Below, in pieces: positions 24,639 through 27,792 of a stretch of DNA of 32,022 nucleotides (position 1 is the stretch's first letter; every line of letters starts with the position of its first letter). The translations under genes and the position numbers were made by a program. Below the pieces are notes generated by a model. It was not told the origin of the DNA. It worked only from the letters and a program-made list of their open reading frames with translations, and did no database searches. Origin of the DNA: a virus. The stretch is from positions 1 through 32,022 of the IMG/VR virus record IMGVR_UViG_3300042397_000050; one strand, given 5' to 3'.

Positions 24639-25067
24639 ATGCTAACGAGAAAGAAAGATATATCAATAAGACAGTTAAAGGACTTATACTTTGCGCAACG
24701 TAACACCCATTTGCAGCTACACGAAATGATGCAGCAACTTGGATTGTTAGGCATAGAAGATAACGAGCCTTTAGGGTTAGACATTGGCGCAAGAACGATT
24801 GTCAAATTGGTAGACGAAGAGTTTGAGTGCGATGTATTAATTAAGGATAGATCATTAAAAACAACGTTTGGGCGCAAGGCTGCGGCATATTTACTTAGAA
24901 GGTACACCAAGTTAAGCCTTAAGGAGATAAGCCAATACACAGGAACAAGCGACCATACAACGGCTATCCATAACATTAAACAAGCGAATAACCTAATAGA
25001 AACTGAGGACTGGTTTAAAACAAAGCTAAAAAAACTTTGCTTAAAATTAGAACTTAAAGAGATTTAG
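24639..25067 (+). CDS. DnaA domain IV-like DNA-binding protein, 142 aa
   Basis: Residues about 72-132 are the C-terminal DNA-binding domain of DnaA: 'KTTFGRKAAAYLLRRYTKLS', 'LKEISQYTG', then the signature T-S-D-H-T-T-A-I-H (103-111). In DnaA this helix-turn-helix binds DnaA boxes. There is no AAA+ ATPase domain and the first 70 residues are helical and Leu/Gln-rich without recognised features. It could bind a phage origin, act as a competitor for host DnaA, or regulate transcription. Followed immediately by the structured element at 25091. Confidence 0.87.
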   Translation: MLTRKKDISIRQLKDLYFAQRNTHLQLHEMMQQLGLLGIEDNEPLGLDIGARTIVKLVDEEFECDVLIKDRSLKTTFGRKAAAYLLRRYTKLSLKEISQYTGTSDHTTAIHNIKQANNLIETEDWFKTKLKKLCLKLELKEI

Positions 25068-25090
25068 TGTATATTCGCAACATAAATAAA

Positions 25091-25171
25091 AGACACATTA
25101 GCGAAAGTCCAGCCGATAATGTGTTTAGTGGTTAAATAATAGCCCTCGATAGCTGGACTCTATTGGGGGCT
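25091..25171 (+). promoter_or_regulatory. Two-hairpin RNA element with loop-loop pairing before the HNH gene
   Basis: Hairpin 1: ten pairs (25091-25100 with 25117-25126, one G-U) around a 16-base loop. Hairpin 2: twelve pairs (25141-25152 with 25160-25171, two G-U) around the 7-base loop CTGGACT. AGTCCAG (25106-25112) in loop 1 is the exact reverse complement of the entire loop of hairpin 2, allowing a kissing complex. Hairpin 2 is also a terminator, and the HNH start lies 6 bases past its T tract, so the element could set readthrough into HNH. A weak -7 box, TATATTCG (25070-25077), might start a separate RNA of about 95 bases instead. Confidence 0.6.
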
Positions 25172-25176
25172 TTTTT
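25141..25176 (+). terminator. Intrinsic terminator after the DnaA-like gene
   Basis: Stem AGCCCTCGATAG with CTATTGGGGGCT, loop CTGGACT, then TTTTT-ATTTT. A strong stem-loop; it resembles the tail tube terminator in its GCCCTCG start and its T6-A-T4 end. Translation of the HNH gene begins at 25182, so its ribosome entry zone is in the terminator tail itself. Confidence 0.85.
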
Positions 25177-25181
25177 ATTTT

Positions 25182-25550
25182 ATGACATACGGAGAAAAAC
25201 TAAAAAGTCCTGAATGGCAAAAGAAACGTCTTGAAATTTTACAACGAGACAAGTTTACCTGTACAATGTGCGGTTCAACAGAAAAGCAACTGCACGTACA
25301 TCACAAGGTTTATATCTACAAAAATGACCCTTGGGATTATGAAAATGAATTTTTAACTACATTATGTTTAGAGTGCCACGAAGAAGAGGAGTACTCTAAG
25401 TATTTTGTAAACAGAATTATTAAATTTCATATTTACAAAGGATTAACTTACAAAGAATTAAGACCACAAATTAGTGAGCTTATGCATAAGTATGTTAAAA
25501 TACAAGATGTTACTTTTGATGAACTACAAAAATTTGGAGAATATGTCTAA
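25182..25550 (+). CDS. HNH endonuclease, 122 aa
   Basis: Begins with 'LKSPEWQKKRLEILQRDKFT', the normal entry to small HNH proteins. Zinc ligands C27-x2-C30 and C62-x2-C65; the HNH core is H40/H41 (VHHK), N55 and H66. The C-terminal 50 residues are helical and unfamiliar. Small standalone HNH enzymes in phages are either packaging partners or homing-type mobile genes. Here it sits between replication genes and behind a terminator with a structured leader, which fits an inserted gene. The ATG lies 6 bases after the terminator T tract. Confidence 0.9.
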   Translation: MTYGEKLKSPEWQKKRLEILQRDKFTCTMCGSTEKQLHVHHKVYIYKNDPWDYENEFLTTLCLECHEEEEYSKYFVNRIIKFHIYKGLTYKELRPQISELMHKYVKIQDVTFDELQKFGEYV

Positions 25551-26352
25551 AGATACTTTTTACTTTTCTCACGACTATAATTGCCGTAATGACGAAAAGA
25601 TTAAATTCCTTATTAGGAAACACGGAATGCTCGGTTATGGGGTATTTTGGGCAATTATTGAAGACCTTTACAATAATGCAAACGCATTGCGAACGGATTG
25701 CGATGGCATAGCTTATGACCTGCGAGTGCATAGCGAACTTGTGCATAGCGTATTACACGACTTTGGTTTATTTGTATTTGAAGGCGAAAACTTTGGTAGT
25801 ATGTCTGTACAAAAACGAATAGACGAAAGGGATAGCAAGAGTAAGAAGGCAAGTCAAAACGCCCGTAAACGTTGGGTTTCTAATGTAAATGATGCGACCG
25901 CAATGCCACCGCATAGCGACCGCAATGCTATAAAGGAAAGGAAAGGAAAAGAAATAAAGGAAATAAAAGAAATAATAGAGCTTCCTTTTGTTTCTAAGGA
26001 ATTTGAAAAAATGTGGTTTGATTGGAAGGATTACAAGAAAAAACAATTTAAGTTTACATATAGAACAACACAAAGCGAACTTGCTACCTTACAAGAATTA
26101 ATAAAATTATCAAACGGACAAGAAGACATTGCTATAAAAATTATCAATCAGTCAATGGCAAATGGTTGGAAAGGTCTATTTAACCTAAAAGAAGATGCAA
26201 AAAGAACTTCAGATAATCAACGAAAGCTTGATAAACACGAACTTGAAAACCTTAAAAACTACAACTTTATCCACTCTACTTCCTACGGAGCAAGAGATTA
26301 TGACCGCATTTTCGGGGGAGAGGGTGCGCAATCTGAACTCTACCATATTTAA
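25543..26352 (+). CDS. Replisome organizer / DUF4373-type replication protein, 269 aa
   Basis: Starts at ATG 25543, overlapping the HNH stop by 8 bases; the frame also opens at 25474, but those residues overlap HNH and do not resemble the family. Residues 1-95 are the DUF4373 (Lin1244-like) domain: 'FYFSHDYNCRNDEKIKFLIR', 'GYGVFWAIIEDLY', 'FVFEGE'. It is followed by 'SKKASQNARKRW' and a charged linker (135-145). The C-terminal part (150-220) has 'MWFDWKDYKKKQFKF' and 'AIKIINQSMANGWKGLF', as in phage replication proteins that load helicase. Its own DNA holds the 11-bp repeat array, a lambda O-like arrangement. Confidence 0.85.
   Translation: MSKDTFYFSHDYNCRNDEKIKFLIRKHGMLGYGVFWAIIEDLYNNANALRTDCDGIAYDLRVHSELVHSVLHDFGLFVFEGENFGSMSVQKRIDERDSKSKKASQNARKRWVSNVNDATAMPPHSDRNAIKERKGKEIKEIKEIIELPFVSKEFEKMWFDWKDYKKKQFKFTYRTTQSELATLQELIKLSNGQEDIAIKIINQSMANGWKGLFNLKEDAKRTSDNQRKLDKHELENLKNYNFIHSTSYGARDYDRIFGGEGAQSELYHI
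25674..25739. repeat. Tandem 11-bp iteron-like array (candidate replication origin)
   Basis: Six consecutive 11-mers starting at 25674, 25685, 25696, 25707, 25718 and 25729: TAATGCAAACG, CATTGCGAACG, GATTGCGATGG, CATAGCTTATG, ACCTGCGAGTG, CATAGCGAACT. Consensus about CATTGCGAACG. A further CATAGCGT follows at 25744, CATAGCGA at 25912, and reverse-orientation CGCAATG at 25900 and 25921. The 11-base period is not a multiple of three, so it is not due to a protein repeat. A 50-base stretch without C, mostly A and G (25929-25978), follows downstream and may be an unwinding zone. Confidence 0.55.
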
Positions 26353-26953
26353 ACAAAACCTTGTTTATTTAATGCAGCTTGTAGGAATTAATAACCCTGG
26401 AGATGTTAAGTTAGCAATCTTAGAGGATTGGATAAGAACTGAGTATGGTGGCTTTACAATAAACGAGGTTAAAGTAGCGTTTAAGCAAATGGTAGCTAAT
26501 GACTTTATCGACCACTACCAGAACTTCAGTCCTGCATACTTTAGTCAGGTAATGGATAGGTACAAGAAAAAAGCAAACGAAGTAAGAAAAATGATGCCAC
26601 AAGAACGAGTAGAAGCAATACCACACTTGACCGATTTAGAGATAATTGATTACTCTTACCAAGAATATAAGCTTTTAGAAAACCGAAGTTTTGATAGGTT
26701 GTTTAACCCACTAAGCGTATTTACTAAGCTTAATAGTTCAGGCATTAAGGTATGGACAAAAGAAGATGGTGCACTTGCTAAAAAGAAACTAATGGAGATT
26801 ATTACCTACAAGGCTAATAAAATGGACATCATAAGCGCAAAGCAGTACCGAGACGAATGGACTGATAGTTGGCTTAAGAACCAGGCTCGAGCCGTAGCCG
26901 TAGCATTATTTTTTGAGGAACAAATTAAACAAAACAAAACAACATTCAAATGA
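26300..26953 (+). CDS. Hypothetical replication-region protein, 217 aa
   Basis: Overlaps the preceding gene. I choose ATG 26300 because the open frame upstream to 26195 would overlap by 158 bases and reads low-complexity Leu/Thr/Asn sequence. If the first start is real, the protein has 252 residues. The body is helical ('GDVKLAILEDWIRTEYGGFT', then 'EVKVAFKQM') with a central 'FSPAYFSQVMDRYKKKANEV' and a C-terminal Ala/Val/Phe-rich helix. In Bacteroidota phages such a protein often follows the DUF4373 replisome gene; a helicase-loader-like role is plausible but unsupported. Overlaps the methyltransferase by 4 bases. Confidence 0.65.
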   Translation: MTAFSGERVRNLNSTIFKQNLVYLMQLVGINNPGDVKLAILEDWIRTEYGGFTINEVKVAFKQMVANDFIDHYQNFSPAYFSQVMDRYKKKANEVRKMMPQERVEAIPHLTDLEIIDYSYQEYKLLENRSFDRLFNPLSVFTKLNSSGIKVWTKEDGALAKKKLMEIITYKANKMDIISAKQYRDEWTDSWLKNQARAVAVALFFEEQIKQNKTTFK

Positions 26954-27792
26954 GACACGGCAGTTTATTTAGTGGAATAGGTGGCTTTGATCTGGCAGCC
27001 GAATGGTGCGGTTGGGAAAACGTATTTCATTGCGAATGGAATCCATTTGGACAAAAAGTTTTAAAACATCACTTCCCAAATTCAATATCTTACAATGACA
27101 TTACTAAAACAGATTTCACTATTCACAGAGGAACAATCGACATCATTAGTGGAGGCTTCCCTTGCCAACCCTACTCAAGTGCAGGAAAGCGACTTGGCAA
27201 AGAAGATGAGAGACACCTCTGGCCGGAAATGCTTAGAGCAATTCGGGAAATTCAGCCAAGTTGGGTTGTGGGCGAGAACGTTCGCGGACTTACTAATTGG
27301 AACGGGGGATTGGTATTCGACGAGGTGCAAACTGAGTTGGAAGCTGAAGGCTACGAAGTCCTCCCGTTTTTACTTCCAGCTTGTGCCGTTAACGCACCAC
27401 ATCGAAGAGACCGAATTTGGTTTATTGCCTACACCACTTGCTTCGGAGGGTTACAAAATGAGGGGAGGAGAAAAAGAGAACCAATTAAGCTTGACAAAAT
27501 TAGCGAGACAAGGGTTGCTTCCAACCCCTACAAAATCGGATTACAATCCAAGATGGAAAACGGAGAATTGGAAAGGGGATTCCGATTTGCCGAGTGTAAT
27601 AAACGAAATGCTTGGGACACATTCCCAACTGTCTCCCCTGTTTGTGGAACAGGTGATGGGCTTCCCAAAGAATTGGACAACATTACCTTTTCAAAATGGA
27701 AAAACGAAAGTATCAAAGCCTACGGAAATGCAATAGTTCCTCAGGTAGCTTATCAGATATTTAAAAGTATTTGTCAATATCAAGAACTTTAG
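26950..27792 (+). CDS. dcm: DNA cytosine-5 methyltransferase, 280 aa
   Basis: Transfers methyl from SAM to cytosine C5, protecting phage DNA. Motifs are in order: I 'LFSGIGGFDLAAEW' (7-20), IV 'GGFPCQPYSSAGKR' (catalytic C72), VI 'GENVRGL' (E109), VIII 'PHRRDRIWF' (150-158), IX-X 'KAYGNAIVPQVAYQIF' (256-271). The target recognition region between VIII and IX (about 160-245) is short. The gene starts overlapping the previous stop by 4 bases. It contains, in the +1 frame, another long reading frame, described separately. No partner restriction gene is seen. Confidence 0.95.
   Translation: MRHGSLFSGIGGFDLAAEWCGWENVFHCEWNPFGQKVLKHHFPNSISYNDITKTDFTIHRGTIDIISGGFPCQPYSSAGKRLGKEDERHLWPEMLRAIREIQPSWVVGENVRGLTNWNGGLVFDEVQTELEAEGYEVLPFLLPACAVNAPHRRDRIWFIAYTTCFGGLQNEGRRKREPIKLDKISETRVASNPYKIGLQSKMENGELERGFRFAECNKRNAWDTFPTVSPVCGTGDGLPKELDNITFSKWKNESIKAYGNAIVPQVAYQIFKSICQYQEL
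27095..27736 (+). CDS. 213-residue protein nested out of frame in the methyltransferase gene
   Basis: The frame lies wholly within dcm, in its +1 frame. It begins MTLLKQISLFTEEQSTSLVE. Segments 'SGRKCLEQFGKFSQVGLWAR', 'LLIGTGDWYSTRCKLSWKLK' and 'RFYFQL' look conserved, the repeats 'GLLPTP' occur twice, and the end has 'QLSPLFVEQVMGFPKNWTTL'. These resemble, from memory, proteins encoded beside or over dcm genes in other Bacteroidota phages; 'L.P.FVE..MGFP..WT' is also a motif at the end of some phage methyltransferases. That makes a shadow frame unlikely, and 213 stop-free codons in this AT-rich DNA is long. The function is unknown. Confidence 0.7.
   Translation: MTLLKQISLFTEEQSTSLVEASLANPTQVQESDLAKKMRDTSGRKCLEQFGKFSQVGLWARTFADLLIGTGDWYSTRCKLSWKLKATKSSRFYFQLVPLTHHIEETEFGLLPTPLASEGYKMRGGEKENQLSLTKLARQGLLPTPTKSDYNPRWKTENWKGDSDLPSVINEMLGTHSQLSPLFVEQVMGFPKNWTTLPFQNGKTKVSKPTEMQ

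Follow-up and report, generated by a model that had tools for sequence, protein, structure and literature searches.

The window analysed here, a stretch of 32,022 nucleotides forming positions 1 to 32,022 of IMG/VR virus record IMGVR_UViG_3300042397_000050, contains two closely spaced hairpins in front of an HNH endonuclease gene. This locus raises the question of whether the two loops pair with each other and, if so, what the resulting RNA does. In the first-pass annotation, made from this DNA alone, the second hairpin was described as a strong terminator with a 7-base loop fully complementary to a word in the first loop. The fold was proposed either to control readthrough into the HNH gene or to belong to a small RNA of about 95 bases. 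The coordinates of the element and of its neighbours are given in the table.

Table. Features of the kissing-loop element and of the adjacent genes in the window
Feature	Position	Strand	Basis or remark
DnaA C-terminal-domain gene, upstream	24639..25067	+	Pfam PF08299
Promoter-like -7 box TATATTCG, Bacteroidetes type TAnnTTTG	25070..25077	+	motif only
Hairpin 1 (5' hairpin)	25091..25126	+	fold prediction; stem with one mismatch
Hairpin 1, outer stem	25091-25100 / 25117-25126	+	one G.A mismatch
Hairpin 1, inner 2 bp	25102-25103 / 25114-25115	+	enclose the 10-base loop AAAGTCCAGC
Kissing word 1, AGTCCAG, in hairpin 1 loop	25106..25112	+	7 pairs with 25153-25159
Linker AGTGGTTAAATAAT	25127..25140	+	almost invariant across class A (alignment)
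Hairpin 2, intrinsic terminator, 12-bp stem and 7-base loop	25141..25171	+	fold; apical stem covaries
Hairpin 2, stem	25141-25152 / 25160-25171	+	
Kissing word 2, CTGGACT, the entire terminator loop	25153..25159	+	complement of word 1
Terminator T tract, abutting the start codon at 25182	25171..25181	+	sequence
HNH endonuclease gene, insertion between leader and replication gene	25182..25550	+	Pfam HNH
Replication-initiation-type gene (Lin1244_N)	25543..26352	+	Pfam PF14297; phrog_2562, replication initiation protein

The element in the window was predicted to fold at -29 kcal/mol, and none of 200 shuffles folded as well (z = -3.9). The stretch from 25141 to 25181 has the G+C-rich hairpin followed by a T run that is typical of an intrinsic terminator, and its stem covaries among relatives. 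The word AGTCCAG is complementary to the whole loop CTGGACT, and an eighth pair is gained if the closing G is included. The first loop has the 16 bases originally described if the inner two base pairs are ignored, but only 10 when they are counted. A permissive descriptor, consisting of a terminator and a preceding hairpin whose loop holds an 8-base complement, gave about 0.07 chance matches per dinucleotide-shuffled window, so the single window sequence is suggestive only and no proof. The initial argument that such complementarity is unlikely to arise by chance was thus good but short of proof, and it was covariation that settled the matter.

Copies of the element were gathered via HNH relatives and a linker scan, giving more than 100 phage copies of what is here termed class A. 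In alignment A2, which contains 47 distinct copies, the kissing helix was paired in 99.4% of cells; five of its seven pairs showed changes on both sides, and three Watson-Crick types each were present at three positions. When the partners were slid by 1–3 columns, pairing over the whole structure dropped from 99.1% to 26–39%. The stem of hairpin 1 was also paired in 99.4% of cells, with both-sided changes in three of ten counted pairs. The exceptions in the kissing helix of A2 were L071 and L010, with one mismatch each. The L010 copy is located at the edge of an odd, possibly chimeric contig, where a seemingly reversed piece of a DnaA-like gene (1-250) lies upstream of the element.

The words change frequently. 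On the tree of the upstream DnaA-like gene (117 class A rows) the word changed 62 times, and complementarity was kept in 116 of the 117. Between loci with 97–99% identity in this gene, the words differed in 130 of 164 pairs. They are therefore almost unlinked to the DnaA-like gene, which makes the kept complementarity more telling. These near-unlinked words stand only about 75 nt downstream of that gene. The unlinking suggests that recombination is strong here, or that selection favours diversity, and part of the class A word turnover is recombination.

A second group, class B, was found upstream of replication-gene relatives and by a second linker scan. It is unrelated in sequence but has the same architecture. 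The first hairpin is short and has a 7-base loop, and the A/T-rich linker ends in AACTTATT or a sequence like it. The terminator combines an outer stem and a large internal loop with an apical loop of 9 bases, in which the complement lies. In alignment A3 (27 distinct class B rows) all cells were paired (100%), with both-sided changes in 14 of 20 pairs, including five of the seven in the kissing helix. Among 39 class B matches found by linker alone, 36 were complementary; the remaining three did not look like elements. The internal loop of the class B terminator is partly conserved, with UGAA opposite GGA(A)U and covarying flanks (e.g. L337 2935-2996), and could be a protein-binding or bending motif. 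Further forms were B2 (ATGCGAC), D (ATGGTAC, ATGCAAC) and single types in L055, L375 and L439. The scan over all loci was anchored on the promoter, a looser scan having given hundreds of chance matches.

Counted over all classes there are about 20 different words, all of them complementary to their partners. Since both loops have changed together into about 20 matched word pairs, the loop-loop contact must be considered real. In classes A and B alike, the hairpins were kept and the loop changes were compensatory, as in a kissing-loop RNA. It had been stated beforehand that a terminator kept without its loop word, or a lack of compensatory changes, would speak against the structure; compensatory changes were abundant, pointing to strong selection on the kissing. 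In most class B copies the complementarity ends at the loop edges (A-word-T), which argues for kissing rather than strand exchange and disfavours the view that a strand-exchange antiterminator alone accounts for the covariation. By comparison of sequences, then, the kissing two-hairpin structure is nearly certain, and the two hairpins with their complementary loops, as first described from the window, were confirmed by fold and covariation in both classes.

The strand of the RNA could be read from the substitutions. Changes from C-G to U-G and from G-C to G-U (e.g. 12 and 18 cells in A2) pair only in RNA of the + strand, indicating that this is the transcribed strand, and such one-strand wobbles are present in class A and class B. 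A TATATT(T/C)G box was found 7–15 nt before hairpin 1 in all 88 class A copies counted, against a background of 5% per 40 nt; four further rows in this count are chance linker matches and not elements. A transcript start is expected near 25083, and from the box and the terminator we infer the start and end of an RNA of about 95 nt. The product of this size suggested at the outset is plausible, given that a promoter-like box and a terminator belong to the element itself. The hosts are apparently Bacteroidetes, as judged by promoter type and gene content and not by an isolate. No conserved leader peptide, as in a leader-peptide attenuator, was found in classes A and B. The candidate ATGTGTTTAGTGGTTAAATAA (MCLVVK) was rejected: its stop is lost in L006 and L043, a TAG interrupts it in L336, and no such frame is present in class B.

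The position of the element is highly conserved. A DnaA_C gene lies upstream of the class A RNA in 116 of 116 testable copies. Downstream, the next gene in 120 distinct class A copies was of the replication-initiation type in 96 (grouped by blastp linkage and family matches of representatives), HNH in 19 and GIY-YIG in five. Behind class B lie replication genes from several families, separated from the RNA in a few cases by an HNH or methyltransferase-like gene. These counts tie the RNA to the start of the replication gene and make the HNH gene of the window one of several insertions. The endonuclease genes appear to have been inserted downstream of a leader that keeps its place. Insertions of 300–400 bp can separate the RNA from the replication gene, and this tolerance speaks against direct control of translation initiation in that gene. 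The terminator ends about 10–20 nt before the start codon, and in every class a same-strand start codon lies a few bases past the T tract. A second promoter cannot fit into this space, and the gene must therefore be reached by readthrough, unless transcripts are processed.

Some neighbouring features deserve mention. In L026 (6966-7277) and L128 a GIY-YIG endonuclease gene occupies the slot that holds the HNH gene in the window, indicating that the slot behind the RNA is a hot spot for endonuclease insertion. In L055 (9031-9700; also in L502, L503 and L506) a cassette lies behind the terminase gene; it comprises a promoter, a kissing RNA of another kind and an HNH_3/NUMOD1 gene. Different codons are used in L055 for the 3' end of the terminase gene before the insert, and the original 3' end is still present behind the HNH gene, as expected of a homing unit with its own leader. 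Further downstream in the window, a 213-aa reading frame (27095-27736) lies in another frame inside the cytosine methyltransferase gene 26950-27792. It matches phrog_1008 (DNA methyltransferase; E 2.7e-24), and the two possibly overlap as genes.

Searches elsewhere gave no further occurrence. The window and nine related loci had no match in Rfam 15 at or above the gathering threshold, the best sub-threshold match reaching 24 bits where 59 are needed. This bears out the initial impression that the RNA belongs to no known family, and no such family was found in the open part of the literature that was searched. The exact linker is present in 87 stretches of cellular genome contigs, never as the element. 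In 395 sampled Bacteroidota genomes, model R1 gave one match, an ordinary terminator without kissing, and model R2 gave none, the latter being a weak result obtained without a positive control. Loci around Lin1244 genes, available from 21 of the 395 genomes, contained no element by the descriptor. Isolate phages showed neither a DNA match nor a match to the DnaA-like protein. In Porphyromonas phage phage005b and Flavobacterium phage 1/32, the nearest Bacteroidetes-host matches to the replication gene, the descriptor scan over all loci detected no element.

These results suggest that the RNA is the leader of a phage replication-initiation operon and acts as an attenuator that controls readthrough, a reading to which we give about an even chance. 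Since the gene must be reached by readthrough, a leader that sets the level of readthrough is the simplest reading. The arrangement of an attenuator was found, namely a promoter (by motif only), a leader and a terminator before a same-strand gene. Among the 120 distinct class A copies, the leader is retained where an endonuclease gene has been inserted, and in general replication-initiation-type genes of several families lie directly behind it. Transcription would start just before hairpin 1, most transcripts would stop at the terminator to give the RNA of about 95 nt, and some would continue into the replication gene or an inserted endonuclease gene. The loop-loop contact would have to be made while the terminator is emerging, and its effect could be to speed up, lock or delay terminator formation. 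The leader would work as an attenuator because the contact would tune the speed or firmness of terminator formation. A phage or host protein, the RNA concentration or the speed of transcription might shift the balance. Because the terminator stem is already strong in the absence of kissing, one cannot predict from sequence how the contact affects termination.

In class A, the linker may provide the alternative structure. Its GGTTA (25130-25134) can pair with the 5' arm of the terminator (25140-25144), and such pairing is possible in every class A subtype (UAGCC, UAACC, GACC), but it is weak (z -0.9 to -3.6). The linker GGUUA together with this arm may thus be an antiterminator, a candidate with no counterpart in classes B2, C and D. 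The linker would first hold the 5' arm while the loop of hairpin 1 captures word 2. Step-wise folding of the window with RNAfold, which cannot score pseudoknots, gave the order linker-5' arm hairpin, word-word pairing, terminator. As estimated by hand, the stems amount to about 19–25 bp-equivalents plus seven kissing pairs, bridged by about 12–19 nt, and intramolecular kissing with some bend is possible.

The main rival to the attenuator is an independent, stable small RNA of about 95 nt, whose ends would be shielded by the 5' hairpin and the kissing terminator, and whose linker or fold would act in trans, the gene being fed by leaky readthrough or processed transcripts. Its own promoter box, the structure at both ends and a linker more conserved than either loop are in keeping with this. 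The start codon that follows the T tract on the same strand in every class speaks against it, as do linkers that differ among classes A, B and D and loop words with no enriched second site in phage loci. In 71 phage loci, the own words were not enriched over other words as trans targets. We regard this alternative as doubtful, though it deserves serious consideration. It is less easy to believe, and on the whole improbable, that the loops pair between molecules, either forming dimers, chains or rings, as phi29 pRNA does, or allowing the terminated RNA to act back on leaders still being transcribed from the same phage. Since the two loops of a single RNA are complementary to each other, contact in trans would be automatic at high RNA concentration; the words are many, largely orthogonal by predicted duplex energy and often changing, as in incompatibility systems. 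However, the linker and stem lengths allow pairing within the molecule, and such pairing would be favoured; the locus serves replication and not packaging, and recombination alone can explain the word shuffling.

The proposal that control is aimed at the HNH gene, as in the leaders of T4 homing endonucleases, can draw on the HNH start 10 nt past the terminator and on two other kissing RNAs (L055, L375) that also precede HNH_3 homing-type endonucleases. In 101 of the 120 distinct class A copies, however, a replication-initiation-type or GIY-YIG gene follows instead, and the leader evidently exists without HNH. As a general role, HNH-specific control is therefore largely refuted, and we consider it very unlikely; within the window phage, control of HNH readthrough is possible as a by-product. 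An element acting as DNA (an origin, a hairpin signal, or a recombination or homing site) would suit a position in the replication module between the DnaA-like and initiator genes, as well as variants almost unlinked to the upstream gene, as at a recombination hot spot. Wobble pairs that form on one strand only, with T tract and promoter box on that same strand, make this highly improbable.

It is conceivable, although we think it rather unlikely, that the element represents a new kind of riboregulator in phages. It would be an attenuator of the replication operon that its own 5' hairpin reads by means of a 7-bp kissing code, and the terminated RNA could also kiss sister transcripts. Each phage type would then have a private word, like plasmid incompatibility groups. 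Kissing loops and attenuators are each well known, but no described family was found in which the terminator loop is the conserved partner of the first hairpin of the transcript. The approximately 20 natural compensated word pairs in one architecture amount to a mutational series for the effect of loop-loop contact on intrinsic termination, and are candidate parts for orthogonal RNA switches in Bacteroidetes. For a large group of uncultured phages, the element also suggests that the replication initiator is controlled at the level of RNA.

Several known systems share parts of this architecture. Like the put RNA of phage HK022, the element has two hairpins at the start of a phage transcript and a proposed link to terminator readthrough. 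The put hairpins are not the terminator and are not known to kiss. The phi29-type pRNA has a packaging role and pairs between molecules. It is likewise a phage RNA with two covarying, mutually complementary loops, as was found in classes A and B, but the present element lies in the replication module and not among packaging genes, and has no similarity to it in sequence or location and no Rfam match. RNA I and RNA II of ColE1 kiss as an intermolecular sense-antisense pair; fully pairable 7-base loops, the replication context and the diversity of words are shared with them, but here both loops lie within one sense RNA.

In the RNA leaders of T4 homing endonucleases, hairpins hide the ribosome binding site (PMC2988022). 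A structured leader and a local promoter before mobile endonuclease genes are common to both, but here the structure is a terminator, and it mostly precedes replication genes (PMC2988022). In attenuators of the pT181 type, the sensing hairpin, which contains the antiterminator, is kissed by a separate antisense RNA made from the other strand (PMC4878617). The present element resembles these in being the leader of a replication gene, with an intrinsic terminator before the gene and loop-loop kissing (PMC4878617). Unlike in the pT181 type, it is the loop of the terminator itself that is bound, and the partner that binds it is part of the same RNA.
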